Positions 21,838 to 35,369 of a stretch of 38,361 nucleotides of DNA are shown in pieces. Numbering within the stretch: the first letter of the stretch is position 1; the number at the start of each line of letters is the position of its first letter. The notes under the pieces were generated by a model that worked only from the letters and a program-made list of their open reading frames with translations, was not told the DNA's origin and ran no database searches. The stretch comes from a virus, in IMG/VR virus record IMGVR_UViG_3300048694_000978, positions 1 to 38,361 of that record; one strand, given 5' to 3'. Both the position numbers and the translations under genes were made by a program.

Positions 21838-22212
21838 TTATACGTAGGTGGCGTTGCGCTGTTGTTGATTGAAGAAAACGCTTAATAATTCGTTGGCGCC
21901 GGTTGCTACAACCTGCAATTGCAATTCAATTAGTATGCCATTTTGTTGGGGAAACACATTGATATCGCTGATGTAAATTCTAGGATCTCCACCTGCCACA
22001 CGCTGCACTTCATTGATAATACCTTGTTGTACTGTTTCGATTTGGTTTTCAAACATGTAGTCCCACAGTGCAGTGCCGTAGCCTGGGCGGCCGGGCAATT
22101 GTCCTTGACGAATGTTAAATGCATTCAACAAGTCGCGCTTGATCAATTCAAAATCCAGCAATGTGAATTTCTTGTATTGTTGTTGGGTATTAAAACCGAT
22201 GAATGTGGGCAT
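21838..22212 (-). CDS. 25: Baseplate wedge protein gp25 (GPW/gp25 family)
   Basis: 124 aa, close to the T4 gp25 length of 132. It has the family layout: an N-terminal LIKRDLLNAFNIRQGQLPGR segment, then PGYGTALWDYMFEN and the C-terminal beta part IYISDINVFPQ. gp25 is the wedge core protein shared by contractile tails and type VI secretion (TssE); it lies against the sheath initiator. The ATG is 5 nt after a perfect TATAAATA late promoter, and no Shine-Dalgarno sequence is visible, so late transcripts may be leaderless. The gene precedes gp6, as expected for wedge components made together. Confidence 0.92.
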   Translation of the reverse strand: MPTFIGFNTQQQYKKFTLLDFELIKRDLLNAFNIRQGQLPGRPGYGTALWDYMFENQIETVQQGIINEVQRVAGGDPRIYISDINVFPQQNGILIELQLQVVATGANELLSVFFNQQQRNATYV

Positions 22213-22217
22213 AGCTA

Positions 22218-22225
22218 TATTTATA
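22218..22225 (-). promoter_or_regulatory. T4-type late promoter (TATAAATA) abutting gp25
   Basis: Minus-strand TATAAATA between the stop of the 626-aa gene and the gp25 ATG. A late RNA starts about 6 nt after the last A, which falls at or next to the A of the gp25 ATG at 22212. It is an exact consensus match in an intergenic gap, so it is likely functional. Confidence 0.65.
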
Positions 22226-28835: not shown

Positions 28836-30283
28836 TACCAAAACCCTCCTTTGAGTAAATCACCATTGGCAAAACTTTTGAGACTGAATTGTTGACTGAC
28901 TTGGCTTCTAGTTTGAATTGGCAGCAATTGAATAGATATTTCCATTTTGGTAGGCACATAAGTGCTGTTGGTATTGGTAGTATTTGTTATACTGGCTTTT
29001 ACAGCACCTTGGGTGGGTACTTGCGGCAAGCCACCGGGGAACAAACCGTTGACTCCCAGTTTGTTTGCCAAAAATCCCAAGGCGCCATTTAAGCTAGGAC
29101 CGCTGGACAGTTGTCTGCGGTTTTCCAAATTCAGTCCATAGTTGTTGAATCCGTCAGCACGAATATAATCCACATCATTGGGCAGGCTGTAGTTGAACGA
29201 AGATATCAAACAAGGATGATTGTTGAATTGATACTGACCGTACCCTGACAAATACACCAGCGGCGGAGGAGTGCCTGCCTGTTGGTCTTTGCCATAAAAC
29301 ATCTTTGTCACTGATCTGAAGAAATGTATTACGGCCAACAAATATTGTGCTTCAGATGTGTCTTGTGCTGTAAACGTTCCGCGAATGTTGATTGCGTCAA
29401 CATAACTGTTTTGGTAAAAATATCCGCGATAGTTGCTGTGAACCAAATCGGCCATTTGATATTTGGCAAGGTATGAAGTTTCGATGCTGGGTGTATATGG
29501 GAATATCACACCGTCGGTTTTTGCCAGTGGTGCAAGTATGCCTGGTCCAGGTATTTCTCGACCTTGTGAACTGCCGCCTTGAGCTTTGTAGAGATAATCA
29601 GCACCTGGTGCCAACTGTATACGCACACGCCAATCAGCAGAACTAGGCTTGTTTTGACGAGCTTGTAGCGTTTGCTGCTTCTGAGCATTGATGATTTCAA
29701 CTTGTTGTTGTACGCCTGCTTCTGATCCGTCACTAACAGCAGTGCCGGGCTGATTCAACACAGGTTCTGGATAAGGGAAGCCTTCGGGACTAACTGGTGT
29801 TGCTTGTGCTTCTTGTTGCGCTAATTCAGCTCGAGCGTTTTCTGCCTGCAGGCTTTGATAGTACGCAACTTCAGGATCTTCGTCCCCAACGGGAGGAGGG
29901 TCAGTTTCTAATTGATTGTCGTTGAACTCAGCTGCTGAGGCCAATCTAGACGCTTCAAATGGATCAACTTCAGGAGCAGGAGCTGTTTCGGCCACGGTGT
30001 TGTCGACTGGTGCAGCAGGGGTTGGCGCTGGCGCAGCAGGGGCTTGACGCTCTATATTGGCTCGTTCAGTTACCAAAGAGTTGACACTGCTTTGAGTGGT
30101 TGCAATTTGTGCCTGCAGGTCCACTTGCTGAGCCAAAAGCTTGGCAATGTAATTTTGGTTTGCTTGATAGGCTGGATTGATATTGTCAAGGCTCTGACTA
30201 ACAATCCGTAGCTTTTCCTGCAACGTTTGCAAGTTGCCTTCTGCTACGCCTATAGCTGTGTTGATTTCTGCTTGTGTTGCCAT
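28835..30283 (-). CDS. 48: gp48-like baseplate/tail-tube cap protein
   Basis: 482 aa. The N-terminal ~85 residues are helical and probably coiled coil (KLLAQQVDLQAQIATTQSSV), followed by an Ala/Pro linker (PAAPAPTPAAPV) and a Glu/Gln-rich region to ~215. The C-terminal half holds the conserved domain: VIFPYTPSIETSYLAKYQ (~259), YFYQNSYVDAINIRGTF, LLAVIHFFRSVTKMFYG (~313-329) and LPNDVDYIRADGFNNYG. This block is annotated in T4-like cyanophages as tail-tube cap gp48; gp54 (tube initiator) is the alternative. These proteins cap the hub and nucleate tube polymerisation. It heads the leftward baseplate operon. A near-match to the late motif (GTTAAATA) is 17 nt before the ATG. Confidence 0.75.
   Translation of the reverse strand: MATQAEINTAIGVAEGNLQTLQEKLRIVSQSLDNINPAYQANQNYIAKLLAQQVDLQAQIATTQSSVNSLVTERANIERQAPAAPAPTPAAPVDNTVAETAPAPEVDPFEASRLASAAEFNDNQLETDPPPVGDEDPEVAYYQSLQAENARAELAQQEAQATPVSPEGFPYPEPVLNQPGTAVSDGSEAGVQQQVEIINAQKQQTLQARQNKPSSADWRVRIQLAPGADYLYKAQGGSSQGREIPGPGILAPLAKTDGVIFPYTPSIETSYLAKYQMADLVHSNYRGYFYQNSYVDAINIRGTFTAQDTSEAQYLLAVIHFFRSVTKMFYGKDQQAGTPPPLVYLSGYGQYQFNNHPCLISSFNYSLPNDVDYIRADGFNNYGLNLENRRQLSSGPSLNGALGFLANKLGVNGLFPGGLPQVPTQGAVKASITNTTNTNSTYVPTKMEISIQLLPIQTRSQVSQQFSLKSFANGDLLKGGFW
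28845..28851 (-). promoter_or_regulatory. Strong ribosome binding site for gp53
   Basis: Minus-strand AAGGAGG within the last codons of the gp48-like gene, 9 nt before the ATG at 28835. It is the best Shine-Dalgarno match in the operon and decides the gp53 start over a TTG six bases upstream. Confidence 0.7.
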
Positions 30284-30300
30284 GCCAGTTTCCTATACCT

Positions 30301-30308
30301 TATTTAAC
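30301..30308 (-). promoter_or_regulatory. Possible variant late promoter (GTTAAATA)
   Basis: Minus-strand GTTAAATA differs from NATAAATA at one position and lies 17 nt before the gp48-like ATG, the distance expected for a T4-type late promoter. The leftward operon needs a promoter here and no better match is seen in the gap. Confidence 0.25.
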
Positions 30309-30339
30309 CATTTTTTTATCGGCGCAGTTTATAAAAAGG

Positions 30340-30367
30340 TTGACAAGTGTTGTAAATATGCTACAAT
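30340..30367 (+). promoter_or_regulatory. Sigma70-type early promoter for gp55 operon
   Basis: TTGACA at 30340-30345 and TACAAT at 30362-30367, separated by 16 bp. The -35 box is perfect and the -10 box has one mismatch to TATAAT. It lies in the 109-bp divergent gap and points at gp55, whose AAGGAGA ribosome site is at 30374-30380. The host sigma70 holoenzyme should read it early, giving gp55 before late transcription begins. Confidence 0.65.
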
Positions 30368-30392
30368 TTCACTAAGGAGACTTAGCAGTCAT

Positions 30393-31289
30393 ATGACTTT
30401 ATTACCCAAAACCGCACCACGTGTTAACTATCTAAACAACAGAGACATCCTAAAAGAAATCCACTACAGCAAAAATACATACTGTTGGTATCGCGACAGA
30501 GACGCAGATCACCAGTACGATATCATATTGCCCAGTATAGACAAAATCAATCAACGCACCATTGCAGAAGCCCGCAGAAATCGTGCAGATCGCATCAAAC
30601 GTGAAACAGGCGAAGTGATCGATCAAAAGAAAATTCCCAACACTGATCTAGTGTTTCGTATTACAGCTTGGGACCACATTCCCAAAGCACCTAAAAAACT
30701 TACCAAAGCCGAAGCCAAAAAGAAAAAACTGGAAGAAATTTTTGAACTGGACACCGTGGAAGAAGATCCGCTGGCAGACTTGATCGAAGAGCCTGTGTTG
30801 GACATGAACCATGTGCGAGTTAACTTTCCGCCATTTGAACACTATCGCATAGACGAAGAAAAAAATACTTTCATCGTGGGTCGTAGTCACTGGCGTGGCG
30901 ACTTGGAAACAGGAGAGTTTTCAAAAGATCACGGTCAGATGACTCGCAAGCTGGCCACAATGTTTATCAAACTGTGCGAACGCTATGCCACAAGATCAAA
31001 CTGGAGAGGATACACTTACAATGAGGAAATGCGTGGACAAGCTCTTTTGCAACTTAGTCAGATCGGCCTACAGTTCGATGAGTCGAAATCTCAGAACCCC
31101 TTCGCGTATTACACGGCTGCGATTACTAATAGCTTTACACGAATTCTTAACATTGAGAAAAAGATGCAAAATATCAGAGATGACATCTTGGAAATGAACG
31201 GACTCAATCCATCATGGACCCGACAAAATTCTGGCTCAAGAAGTATGGCTGCTTTGTCCGGGCCGGTTGTATCTAGCTTGGATGAGTAG
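30393..31289 (+). CDS. 55: Late-transcription sigma factor gp55
   Basis: 298 aa from the ATG at 30393. A longer in-frame start at 30234 would run through the promoter and into the opposite gene, so it is rejected; AAGGAGA at 30374-30380 supports 30393. Residues ~190-285 match the gp55 sigma region 2-like core (MTRKLATMFIKLCERYATRS, NWRGYTYNEEM, NPFAYYTAAITNSFTRIL). gp55 replaces host sigma70 on RNA polymerase and recognises TATAAATA late promoters. T4 gp55 is 185 aa; here the N-terminal ~180 residues are an added Lys/Glu-rich region with PKKLTKAEAKKKKLEEIFEL, common in marine relatives. It is first in a plus-strand operon with the GIY-YIG endonuclease, gp47 and gp46. No Zn site or membrane segment is seen. 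Confidence 0.92.
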   Translation: MTLLPKTAPRVNYLNNRDILKEIHYSKNTYCWYRDRDADHQYDIILPSIDKINQRTIAEARRNRADRIKRETGEVIDQKKIPNTDLVFRITAWDHIPKAPKKLTKAEAKKKKLEEIFELDTVEEDPLADLIEEPVLDMNHVRVNFPPFEHYRIDEEKNTFIVGRSHWRGDLETGEFSKDHGQMTRKLATMFIKLCERYATRSNWRGYTYNEEMRGQALLQLSQIGLQFDESKSQNPFAYYTAAITNSFTRILNIEKKMQNIRDDILEMNGLNPSWTRQNSGSRSMAALSGPVVSSLDE

Positions 31290-31297
31290 TATACTAC
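31286..31297 (+). repeat. 12-bp perfect palindrome at the gp55 stop codon
   Basis: GTAGTATACTAC is a perfect 12-bp palindrome that includes the gp55 TAG stop. It sits 16 bp before the stem-loop that precedes the endonuclease gene, at the left junction of that insertion. It could be a protein-binding site, or chance. Confidence 0.4.
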
Positions 31298-31312
31298 GTA
31301 GATGTATTTTAA

Positions 31313-31346
31313 CCCAAAGTGTATAAATAAACATATATACTTTGGG
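31313..31346 (+). promoter_or_regulatory. RNA stem-loop that hides the endonuclease ribosome site
   Basis: Left arm CCCAAAGTGTATA (31313-31325) pairs with right arm TATATACTTTGGG (31334-31346): 13 pairs with one G-U, and an 8-nt AATAAACA loop. The right arm contains the GGG of the only Shine-Dalgarno-like stretch (GGGA, 31344-31347) before the ATG at 31353. RNA read through from the gp55 promoter contains both arms and should fold. It is not a typical terminator, because no U-run follows. Confidence 0.7.
31322..31329 (+). promoter_or_regulatory. Late promoter embedded in the stem-loop (TATAAATA)
   Basis: Exact TATAAATA spanning the end of the left arm and the loop. The expected late start, near 31335, is inside the right arm, so late RNA lacks the left arm, cannot form the hairpin, and carries an 18-nt leader to the endonuclease ATG. 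Confidence 0.7.
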
Positions 31347-31352
31347 ACAAAA

Positions 31353-32117
31353 ATGTTTATCTACAAAATTACCGTTATTCCTCTCAATCAAGTTTACGTT
31401 GGGTTGGACACAAAACCAGTGTACAAGCAATCACGTTGGAAAGAGCATTGCAAAAACTACCTCAAAGATTACAATACTAAATTGTACAAAGCAATGAAAG
31501 AGTACGGTCTTGCAAACTGTGTCATTGATGTGGTTGAGGACGGTTTTAATTCTGTTACAGAGTTAGCATTGGCCGAAATAAACTATATTCAACAGTTTGA
31601 TTCTTACAGAAACGGATTGAATTCTACTAGAGGGGGTGACGGCCTTGGTCGACATGTTTTGCACAAACTATCAGCAGCCGACATTGATAAAATCAAGATC
31701 GCATTAGGTAATAACCTAAGCGAATATAACTTACAAGTCAAGTGGGCAAACACTAGTTTTGAAGATCGGCAAGAGCTAACCAAGCACTTGCATACCCAAG
31801 AAGTGTATCAAAAAAAGTCTAATACTTTAAAAAAGTTCTATGAAGCCAACCCTGCTGAAAAAGAGAAAAAGAAGATTGGAATACTAGAGTGGCAAGCAGC
31901 TAATCGTAATACACTGATTGAAAACAACAAAAAAAATTCGTTACTTGGTGCCGCAAAGGTTTCGAAGAAATTGCTTGTTGAACACCCTAATGGAGATCTG
32001 TTACACTACACAAGCAAGAGTGAGTTTCAACGTCAAACCGGCCAATGGGCCAAGACAATCATAGAAAAAACTAATCAAGGATCATCACACAATGGATACA
32101 AAGCATGGGAACAATAG
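31353..32117 (+). CDS. Free-standing GIY-YIG homing endonuclease (I-TevI/Seg type)
   Basis: 254 aa from the ATG at 31353, just after the stem-loop; an upstream in-frame ATG at 31302 lies before the hairpin and is not preferred. GIY-YIG residues are in place: IYKIT at 3-7, VYVG at 14-17, R28, E75 (ALAEINYI) and N90 (GLNSTRGG), matching I-TevI's R27, E75 and N90. The middle is a charged, helical linker (~140-200). The C-terminus (VEHPNGDLLHYTSKSEFQRQ) resembles the NUMOD/helix-turn-helix DNA-binding tails of phage homing endonucleases. It lies between gp55 and gp47, genes that are neighbours in related phages, and its TAG is directly followed by the gp47 ATG. It should nick or cut homing sites in competing phage DNA; the target is unknown. 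Confidence 0.88.
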   Translation: MFIYKITVIPLNQVYVGLDTKPVYKQSRWKEHCKNYLKDYNTKLYKAMKEYGLANCVIDVVEDGFNSVTELALAEINYIQQFDSYRNGLNSTRGGDGLGRHVLHKLSAADIDKIKIALGNNLSEYNLQVKWANTSFEDRQELTKHLHTQEVYQKKSNTLKKFYEANPAEKEKKKIGILEWQAANRNTLIENNKKNSLLGAAKVSKKLLVEHPNGDLLHYTSKSEFQRQTGQWAKTIIEKTNQGSSHNGYKAWEQ

Positions 32118-33134
32118 ATGAGTAATTTGTTTAAGAAGGCGGCGGTTTTCACAGATGTGCATTTCGGACTCAAGTCAAACAGTCAACTGCACAACGAAGA
32201 CTGTTTGGCTTTTGTAAAATGGGCCACTGCCAAGGCCCGAGAAGAAGGTTGCGAAACCTGTTTATTCTTGGGTGACTGGCACAACAATCGAGCCAACCTC
32301 AACATTGTCACGCTGAACTACAGCTTGCGGGCACTGGAGCACCTAAATGAAAACTTTGATCGCGTGTATTTTATACCTGGGAATCACGATTTATATTATC
32401 GCGATAAGCGTGATATTCAGAGCGTGGAGTGGGCACGCCATCTCCCCCGTGTGGAAATATGTAACGATTGGTTTAGTGACGGTAACGTCACTATTGCTCC
32501 TTGGCTTTGCGGGGATGACCATAAACGCCTGGCTAAGCTTCAAGGACAATACTTGTTTGGGCACTTTGAACTGCCTGGTTACTTGATGAACGCCATGGTA
32601 GAAATGCCAGATCATGGAGAAATACAAAGAGAACACTTGTCGGGATTCGAGCATGTATTCACTGGACACTTTCACAAGCGGCAGACTAAGAAGAATATTA
32701 CCTACATCGGTAATGCGTTCCCTCACAATTATGCAGATGCTGGGGATGACGAACGAGGACTTACAATACTGGAATGGGGCAAAGCGCCTGAGTTTTATCA
32801 ATGGCCTGATCAACCAACCTATCGAGTCTATGGGCTTGCCAACCTTATTGATAACGCTGCAACTCTTCTTAAGCCCAAAATGCACGTTCGTGTTAACCTC
32901 GATATTGAAATAAGCTACGAAGAAGCCAACTTCATCAAAGAAACATTTATTCGAGATTACAGTCTACGAGAGATGTCCTTAATTCCCAACAAAGCATCAG
33001 GGGTGGAAGAAGATCTTGCACCCGGAGAAGTAAAGTTTGAAAGTGTGGATCAAATTGTTACAGACCAGCTGACCAACATTGAATCAGAGTTTTACGACAA
33101 CCGACTATTGCTGAAGATCTATCAAAATCTATGA
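32118..33134 (+). CDS. 47: Recombination nuclease subunit gp47 (Mre11/SbcD-like)
   Basis: 338 aa, near the T4 gp47 length of 339. Metallophosphoesterase motifs are complete: D13-x-H15 (FTDVHFG), GDWHNN with D53 and H55, GNHD at 88-91, GH at 148-149 and GHFH at 183-186. gp47 with gp46 forms the Mn-dependent nuclease that resects ends during phage recombination-dependent replication and host DNA breakdown. The ATG directly follows the endonuclease TAG; GGGA at 32107-32110 is a weak ribosome site. If the endonuclease is silent early, gp47 must start from that site without coupling. Its stop overlaps the gp46 start (ATGA). Confidence 0.95.
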   Translation: MSNLFKKAAVFTDVHFGLKSNSQLHNEDCLAFVKWATAKAREEGCETCLFLGDWHNNRANLNIVTLNYSLRALEHLNENFDRVYFIPGNHDLYYRDKRDIQSVEWARHLPRVEICNDWFSDGNVTIAPWLCGDDHKRLAKLQGQYLFGHFELPGYLMNAMVEMPDHGEIQREHLSGFEHVFTGHFHKRQTKKNITYIGNAFPHNYADAGDDERGLTILEWGKAPEFYQWPDQPTYRVYGLANLIDNAATLLKPKMHVRVNLDIEISYEEANFIKETFIRDYSLREMSLIPNKASGVEEDLAPGEVKFESVDQIVTDQLTNIESEFYDNRLLLKIYQNL

Positions 33135-34897
33135 CCATTAACATCCACAATCTCACAGTTCGAAACTTCATGAGCGTGGGCAATGCCACGCAGGCAGTTG
33201 ACTTCAACCGCACAGACCTAACACTGGTCTTGGGCGAAAACTTAGACCTAGGTGGTGATGGCTCGCGCAACGGCACAGGCAAAACCACAATCATCAATGC
33301 CTTGAGCTATGCCTTGTATGGGCAAGCTCTCAGCAACATTCGCAAAGACAACCTGGTAAACAAAACCAATGGCAAAAACATGTTGGTCAGCTTGGACTTT
33401 CATGTCAATGGCATTGAATATCGAATCGAGCGTGGTCGCAAGCCCAACGTGCTTAAATTTTATGTCAACCATGAAGAAAAGTCTGCCACAGACGAAGCAC
33501 AAGGCGATTCAAGAGAGACGCAAGATGCCATTGAGCGTATTTTGAACATGAGCCATGATATGTTTCAGCATATCTTGGCGTTGAACACCTACACTCCTCC
33601 GTTCTTGAGTTTGAAAGCCAACGAGCAACGCACAATCATTGAGCAGTTGTTGGGTATTACCTTGCTAAGTGAAAAAGCAGATCGCATCAAGGAACTGAAC
33701 CGACAGACCAAGGATGCTATTCAAACAGAAGAACTACGCATACGTGCTGTTCAAGAAGCCAACAAGCGCATTGAAGAACAGATCGACAGCCTGCGTAAAC
33801 GTCAAAACATGTGGATCAAAAAGCAAACAGAAGATTGTGCAGGGTATCAAACTGCAATATCCGATCTGGAACACATTGACATTGACGCCGAAGTGCAGGC
33901 GCATAGAGACCTAGCAACTTTTCATGCCAAACAAAAAGAAATCAATGACTTTGGCAAGCAAATCAAACTGGTAAGCGGTGAAATTTCCAAGCTAGAACGC
34001 GAACGTGTGAAGCTGGAGCAGGATCTAGCGTTGCTGGCAGATCACAAGTGTCATGCTTGTGGACAAACTGTACACGACAACAAGCATGATGAAATCAAAC
34101 AGGCCAAGCTTGTGGCCTTAGGCGAAGTCAACGATGCCTGGCAAGAAAAACGCAACGAGCTGGTTGAGTATGAAAATGAACTGGAAGAGCTAGGCGAGCT
34201 GGGAACTGCACCCACTGTGTTTTACGACACACTGGAAGATGCACTGAATCATCGCAATACCTTGAGCACTCTTCGCACCAGTTTGGATTCACGACAAGCT
34301 GAAGCTGATCCCTACAAAGAACAAATTTCCGACATGCAGAATCAAGCCTTGCAGGTTGTAAGCTATGATGATTTGAACGAGCTTACTCGAGTGCAAGACC
34401 ATCAAGACTTTTTGCTCAAGCTGTTGACCAGCAAGGATTCATTTGTTCGCAAGAAGATCATTGATCAGAACTTGAGTTACCTGAATCAACGACTCACACA
34501 CTACTTGGATCGCATTGGCCTGCCACACACTGTGAAGTTCCAAAACGATTTAACTGTGAGCATCGAAGAACTAGGCCGCGAACTAGACTTTGACAACTTG
34601 AGTCGTGGCGAGCGCAACAGACTTATCCTCAGCATGAGCTGGGCATTCCGTGACGTTTGGGAAAGCTTGTATCATCCCATCAACGTGCTGTTCATTGACG
34701 AGATGATTGACAACGGCATGGACACACAGGGTGTGGAAAACAGCCTGGCCCTGCTGAAGAAGATGAGCAGGGAACGACACAAATCAATTTGGTTGGTCAG
34801 TCACAAGGATGAGCTGACCAGCCGAGTGGAAAACATTCTAAAAGTTGTGAAAGAAAATGGTTTTACAACCTACAGTACAGACATCGATATAGCATAA
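33131..34897 (+). CDS. 46: Recombination nuclease ATPase subunit gp46 (Rad50/SbcC-like)
   Basis: 588 aa, near the T4 gp46 length of 560. Walker A is DGSRNGTGKTT at 43-53 (K51); long coiled-coil arms run either side of a zinc hook, CHAC at 307-310; the ABC signature LSRGE is at 490-494; Walker B VLFIDE is at 519-524, and the last part has WLVSHKDEL, the H-loop. gp46 is the SMC-like ATPase that opens and positions DNA ends for gp47. The 4-nt ATGA overlap with gp47 fits equal synthesis of the two subunits. All motifs are intact. Confidence 0.96.
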   Translation: MTINIHNLTVRNFMSVGNATQAVDFNRTDLTLVLGENLDLGGDGSRNGTGKTTIINALSYALYGQALSNIRKDNLVNKTNGKNMLVSLDFHVNGIEYRIERGRKPNVLKFYVNHEEKSATDEAQGDSRETQDAIERILNMSHDMFQHILALNTYTPPFLSLKANEQRTIIEQLLGITLLSEKADRIKELNRQTKDAIQTEELRIRAVQEANKRIEEQIDSLRKRQNMWIKKQTEDCAGYQTAISDLEHIDIDAEVQAHRDLATFHAKQKEINDFGKQIKLVSGEISKLERERVKLEQDLALLADHKCHACGQTVHDNKHDEIKQAKLVALGEVNDAWQEKRNELVEYENELEELGELGTAPTVFYDTLEDALNHRNTLSTLRTSLDSRQAEADPYKEQISDMQNQALQVVSYDDLNELTRVQDHQDFLLKLLTSKDSFVRKKIIDQNLSYLNQRLTHYLDRIGLPHTVKFQNDLTVSIEELGRELDFDNLSRGERNRLILSMSWAFRDVWESLYHPINVLFIDEMIDNGMDTQGVENSLALLKKMSRERHKSIWLVSHKDELTSRVENILKVVKENGFTTYSTDIDIA

Positions 34898-34934: not shown

Positions 34935-35369
34935 ATGACATGGCTCTATCAAAATCAACCAGTGGAAACTCTCCCAGAAGATTGCGTGGGCTTTGTCTAC
35001 ATGATTACCAATATCACAAATCAACGCAAATACATAGGCAAAAAACTAGCAAAATTCTCTCGAACCACTCAAAAAACAGTTAAACTCAAAAACGGCAACA
35101 AAAAGAAAAAGAAGATTCGAACCAAAGTTGATTCAGATTGGCGGGACTACTACGGTAGCTCACCAGAACTAACCAAAGACGTAGAACTTCTTGGCAAAGA
35201 AAATTTTCAAAGAGAAATACTTTTTTATTGCAAAAGCAAAGCAGAGTGTAGTTATATAGAAGCAAGAGAACAGTTTTCACGGCGTGTGCTTGAAAGTCAA
35301 GACTGGTACAACGGTCATATTCAAGTTCGCGTCCACGGCAGCCACATAATCAACAAACTCAACGGTTAA
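34935..35369 (+). CDS. Small GIY-YIG nuclease-like protein
   Basis: 144 aa from the ATG at 34935; an overlapping ATG four bases earlier is in another frame that closes after about 50 codons. The GIY-YIG core is seen at 19-37 (GFVYMITNITNQRKYIGKK). A basic insertion (KNGNKKKKKIR) follows, then WRDYYGSSPELTKDVELLG and a Glu in YIEAREQ (~109). Close relatives are common in T4-like marine phages and are usually labelled putative endonucleases. It has no clear DNA-binding tail, unlike the 254-aa enzyme, so it may be a domain-only nuclease. The ribosome site is poor, and it lies 37 nt after gp46. It ends the plus-strand operon. Confidence 0.82.
   Translation: MTWLYQNQPVETLPEDCVGFVYMITNITNQRKYIGKKLAKFSRTTQKTVKLKNGNKKKKKIRTKVDSDWRDYYGSSPELTKDVELLGKENFQREILFYCKSKAECSYIEAREQFSRRVLESQDWYNGHIQVRVHGSHIINKLNG

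Follow-up and report, generated by a model that had tools for sequence, protein, structure and literature searches.

Control by a hairpin combined with a late promoter has been reviewed for the homing endonucleases I-TevI, I-TevII, I-TevIII, segB and Aeh1 mobE (PMC2988022), and the same control has been described for gene e of T4 (PMC3014915). Here, we analyzed a locus with comparable features in an uncultured T4-like phage (IMG/VR record IMGVR_UViG_3300048694_000978; its 38,361 bases are hereafter the window), for which an original prediction had proposed I-TevI-like logic in front of a GIY-YIG endonuclease gene. A hairpin/late-promoter switch acting on an endonuclease carried by a cassette is very probably the best explanation of this leader. 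The finding extends a classic T4 control to an endonuclease family of uncultured phages that offers natural covariation, empty alleles and relics, which makes the claim testable by comparison and beyond a single phage.

The minus strand of the window carries T4-type structural genes. The plus strand, on which all features below are located unless indicated, displays in order gene 55, the GIY-YIG gene, gene 47 and a candidate gene 46 with AAA_23 and SMC-type matches. The upstream neighbor of the endonuclease gene (31353-32117, 254 residues) is a homolog of gene 55, the late-transcription sigma factor (30393-31289; phrog_12791, E 1.3e-76; phrog_234, E 5e-22), and gene 47, which encodes an SbcD-like nuclease subunit (32118-33134; phrog_100, E 3e-63), begins directly past the endonuclease stop codon. 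The endonuclease matches homing endonuclease families of PHROGs (phrog_314, E 3.2e-15; phrog_5123, E 1.8e-12) and has no match in Pfam; its family profile matches the I-TevI catalytic domain 1mk0 (E 2.3e-5). Its AlphaFold model (mean pLDDT 87.5) aligns with 1mk0/1ln0 at a TMt of 0.81-0.83 and an rmsd of 1.7-1.8 Å, and residues Y4, Y15, G17, R28, H32, E75 and N90 are invariant across 21 relatives. Together, the profile, the predicted fold and the invariant residues indicate that the window enzyme has the GIY-YIG fold and catalytic residues. In the isolated-phage collection, even the best matches align with less than half of the protein, and no relative was confirmed in bacterial and archaeal genomes. 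As originally claimed, the gene is free-standing: no group I intron or other Rfam family was detected in 30200-33200 up to E 1, and the genes on either side are both complete, with the junction known from empty alleles, which argues against an intron-encoded endonuclease. L070, L100 and L128 contain relatives of a second GIY-YIG-like ORF that the window carries downstream of gene 46 (34935-35366; phrog_447, phrog_7363).

The three elements of the original prediction, a 13-bp stem-loop, an exact late promoter and a GGGA, are all found in the endonuclease leader. The stem (31313-31346) contains 13 pairs, one of which is G-U, between a left arm CCCAAAGTGTATA (31313-31325) and a right arm TATATACTTTGGG (31334-31346) separated by the 8-nt loop AATAAACA (31326-31333), and the exact T4-type late promoter motif TATAAATA (31322-31329) lies across the left arm and the loop. 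The proposed role of GGGA (31344-31347) as the ribosome site holds in part. It is the best candidate and its GGG lies within the right arm, but it is a weak Shine-Dalgarno sequence that is not fully conserved, with GGGT, GGAT and GGAC among relatives. The computed fold also contains a feature that was absent from the earlier description, an outer helix whose 5' side (31298-31310) pairs with 31350-31364 and so covers the endonuclease AUG (31353-31355); among relatives, the six columns tested in this helix show partial conservation. The hairpin is far beyond chance. RNA spanning 31290-31400 folds at -25.0 kcal/mol, compared with -12.6 +/- 3.0 for shuffled sequences (z = -4.1; 0/200 as good). When the upstream 30 nt were dinucleotide-shuffled 2000 times with promoter and leader fixed, none equaled the native interaction with the leader (-22.8 versus -5.0 +/- 2.6, best -17.9). 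Among the 303 late-like sites examined, the window leader ranks second for this interaction energy.

In the switch that we propose, a mobile cassette composed of this leader and the GIY-YIG homing endonuclease gene would have inserted exactly between genes 55 and 47. RNA coming from upstream would contain both arms and fold, hiding the ribosome site and AUG of the endonuclease. Late RNA polymerase with gp55 would start within the hairpin at about 31335, a position that we take from T4 late-promoter geometry (6 nt downstream of TATAAATA). With the right arm starting at 31334, the resulting late RNA is predicted from sequence to lack the left arm; it would then be unable to fold and would be translated. 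The enzyme would be produced mainly from its own late promoter, and read-through RNA could be common to genes 55 and 47. The computed cost of opening the region from -13 to the AUG is 19.5 kcal/mol in read-through RNA and 4.9 kcal/mol in late RNA from 31335, in agreement with the earlier view that the former folds and the latter does not. The corresponding values for long and late RNA (in kcal/mol) are 14.3 and 5.1 for T4 I-TevI, 14.8 and 2.6 for I-TevII, 15.6 and 5.4 for segB, and 15.5 and 0.7 for gene e, compared with 4.0 and 1.5 for T4 gene 18. The family median is 11.1 versus 2.7, with a difference of at least 5 in 19 of the 21 leaders; the L166-type leader is weak (5.8 versus 2.4 kcal/mol). 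From these features we infer promoter activity, the start site, a translational block and its timing. A late-like motif is also located at 30351, upstream of gene 55, and folded read-through RNA may therefore occur late as well.

Exact TATAAATA is found three times in the window for 0.95 expected, a number reached by 6/100 shuffles. All eight NNTAAATA sites of the window stand immediately before genes and on the correct strand, seven of them preceding ORFs of at least 60 codons and the eighth (3687, minus strand) an ORF of 57 codons. Exact TATAAATA is rare in the clade's large genomes and does not exceed its reversed control there, unlike the looser TAAATA motif, the only one to be enriched. 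Strand-specific enrichment upstream of clade genes was seen for the heptamers ATAAATA, CTAAATA and TAAATAC (for example, ATAAATA 25 versus 1 in G007 and TAAATAC 19 versus 3 in G016). Since these looser heptamers are enriched and the eight window sites precede gene starts, the motif fits the late promoter of the clade, of which TATAAATA would be one form. On the minus strand (22212-22225), the ATG of a gene 25-like ORF lies 5 nt past the end of TATAAATA; its predicted late RNA would start on the AUG and possibly be leaderless.

A profile search of viral contigs returned 41 loci and 21 distinct intact leaders including that of the window, these counts being sequences and not independent events. 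The 20 further leaders precede enzymes with 45-68% protein identity to the window enzyme, and all intact relatives with available flanks are located between gp55 and gp47, their gp55 being 45-100% identical to that of the window. The hairpin around the motif folds in 21/21 leaders; in line with the original prediction, no relative that keeps the gene was found to have lost both arms. TATAAATA is present in 20 of the 21 (19/20 besides the window), the L169 group displaying ACTAAATA at a shifted position. In the stem alignment, 86% of the cells are paired versus 20-48% when the partner is slid, and 8 of 19 pairs have changed on both sides, a value reached by 3/500 shuffles. Since the unpaired promoter letters A24, T26, A27 and A28 are invariant among the 21 relatives while the remaining loop letters vary, promoter and pairing appear to be two separate constraints.

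Comparison with alleles devoid of the endonuclease sheds light on the origin of the leader. Among 77 gp55-gp47 junctions without the gene (not deduplicated, and comprising both empty junctions and junctions with other inserts), 37 contain only a 12-nt spacer, two overlap, and the others have longer spacers or other inserts. In the 37 empty alleles, the gp55 stop codon is followed by 12 nt (TATAMTnnnnnn) and the gp47 ATG. The window junction successively displays a 12-nt spacer, the old gene 47 ATG, the cassette and gene 47. The putative ancestral spacer TATACTACGTAG (31290-31301) matches that of empty alleles, and the ghost start codon of gene 47 (31302-31304) occupies the position of their gp47 ATG, in frame with the endonuclease and at -51 from its AUG. 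Filled and empty junctions were both found, revealing a presence/absence polymorphism at one site. The motif (A/T)ATAAATA occurs in 0/77 endonuclease-free junctions, the intergenic part and the 60 nt preceding it included. Relics consisting of the last 50-64 codons were identified between gp55 and gp47 (L178/L179, 2440-2720; L180, 270-475; L181, 2365-2675), without promoter and without hairpin. Since the motif is missing from junctions without the gene, and promoter and hairpin from the relics, the leader is part of the endonuclease cassette, which brought leader and enzyme gene to the site at once. All relics shown and most intact alleles retain TGGGAA or AAGGAA ahead of gene 47. In the window, TGGGAA lies in the endonuclease 3' end (32106-32111) and is the likely ribosome site for gene 47, from which we infer that the endonuclease tail now serves translation of gene 47. 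The I-TevI-like logic originally put forward is thus supported by the geometry with respect to the predicted late start, by conservation in intact relatives, by covariation, by the disappearance of the leader along with the gene and by a calculated behavior like that of the studied T4 cases.

Since its dyad symmetry spans the promoter, the inverted repeat could alternatively be a DNA operator, bound by the endonuclease or another phage protein, with an incidental RNA fold. Such autorepression is documented for I-TevI, which represses its own late promoter (PMC2988022), and the stem shows no asymmetry between G-U and A-C cells (16 versus 19), hence no sign of a paired form acting as RNA rather than as a DNA dyad. 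However, the arms have freely changed in sequence with pairing kept (L173, L182, L153), and in Mob-like genes a promoter of this kind is enclosed by unrelated arms; both observations are more easily reconciled with pairing than with a fixed recognition sequence. The symmetry also extends to the ribosome site and the AUG. Moreover, the cassette leader does not resemble the insertion site (P = 0.52), and no autorepressor operator similar to the homing site was found in this comparison, which was made with a reconstructed empty site from which the true homing site may differ. Taken together, an operator in place of the RNA switch seems quite improbable. Even less probable, with only a slight chance of being right, is a hairpin that mainly serves processing, stability or termination of gene 55 RNA versus endonuclease RNA. 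Its location between two genes would suit such a role, and Gibb and Edgell are said to have reported in 2007 that Aeh1 mobE RNA is cut internally, but this role would account neither for the invariant promoter in the loop nor for a ribosome site that is paired. An intrinsic terminator is rejected, the stem being followed by ACAAAAATG and no T run.

A further scenario would modify the hairpin/late-promoter switch rather than replace it. In this allele, the early block might be leaky through restart at the ghost AUG (31302) after gene 55, yielding an enzyme with 17 additional residues. The distance from the gp55 stop codon to this AUG (12 nt) equals that of empty alleles, and its reading frame continues uninterrupted into the enzyme. 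Yet an open in-frame AUG within 60 nt is absent from all other family members, and in L007 the frame from the same AUG stops at -25. Initiation at the ghost AUG is therefore not a conserved function, and we hold this leakage to be unlikely.

Beyond the window family, a hairpin/late-promoter switch is also predicted for the Mob-like HNH genes L303 (first met as L059; phrog_655), L304 and L316, with opening costs of 22.6-25.6 kcal/mol in long RNA versus 1.9-4.2 in late RNA (highest pair, 25.6 versus 2.3). Their arms differ from those of the window family although the promoter is identical, so that the design probably has more than one origin. Other Mob-like genes show other arrangements. In L305 and L315, which display a different geometry of this switch, a left arm at the promoter end pairs with the start codon region, the Shine-Dalgarno sequence being in the loop, and in L306, L309 and L311 a GGTTTCC...GGAAACC hairpin without TAAATA motif directly precedes the ATG. 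A hairpin across a late-like promoter is also found before a small conserved protein without PHROG match (MSRPKP..., 95 residues in L020; further sites G019:55477, G020:36441 and G005:270817).

The design appears to be recurrent, but neither universal nor exclusive. Universality among homing endonucleases is contradicted by the MIIYSIY GIY-YIG family, in which most members are without late-like motif and hairpins are weak or absent where TATAAATA is present (ddG -1.8 to -8.0). Exclusivity to endonucleases is contradicted by the 7.5% of 265 other late-like sites of the clade that reach a ddG of -12.6 or stronger. With an identical promoter core, the enrichment is modest, with five endonuclease-like clusters versus 11 others (P = 0.014) and classes set after the folds had been seen, one of the five (L023) matching PHROGs of nucleases/resolvases and not of homing endonucleases. 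On a broader scale, we see about an even chance that free-standing homing endonucleases of T4-like phages repeatedly and independently acquired hairpin-embedded late promoters, and that the role of ribosome site for gene 47 passes to the endonuclease 3' end, so that decay leaves a relic of 50-64 codons without promoter or hairpin. The persistence of such elements might be favored by their own timing and maybe by a start signal provided to a needed neighbor gene.

To conclude, the window case is well supported as a further example of a control known from T4 and its relatives, and not as a new kind of system. A free-standing enzyme under such control has precedents in T4 segB and Aeh1 mobE (PMC2988022). 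These free-standing homing endonucleases similarly combine a late promoter with a hairpin hiding the ribosome site, but they differ in enzyme, insertion site and arm sequences, the window family being fixed at gp55-gp47. T4 I-TevI, in the td intron, shares the same catalytic GIY-YIG fold and a promoter in the hairpin, with read-through RNA that folds over the ribosome site and late RNA without the left arm. However, I-TevI is encoded within a group I intron, and its autorepressor operator is similar to its homing site, whereas the window gene is free-standing and its leader displays no operator similarity. The leader of T4 gene e shows the same switch between long and late RNA, and the 5' strand of its structure contains TATAAATA, although e is a phage lysis gene and not a mobile element. 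Finally, the Mob-like genes L303, L304 and L316 belong to the HNH family and have arms unrelated to those of the window, but like the window leader they combine TATAAATA near the loop with a long stem that extends to the start codon.
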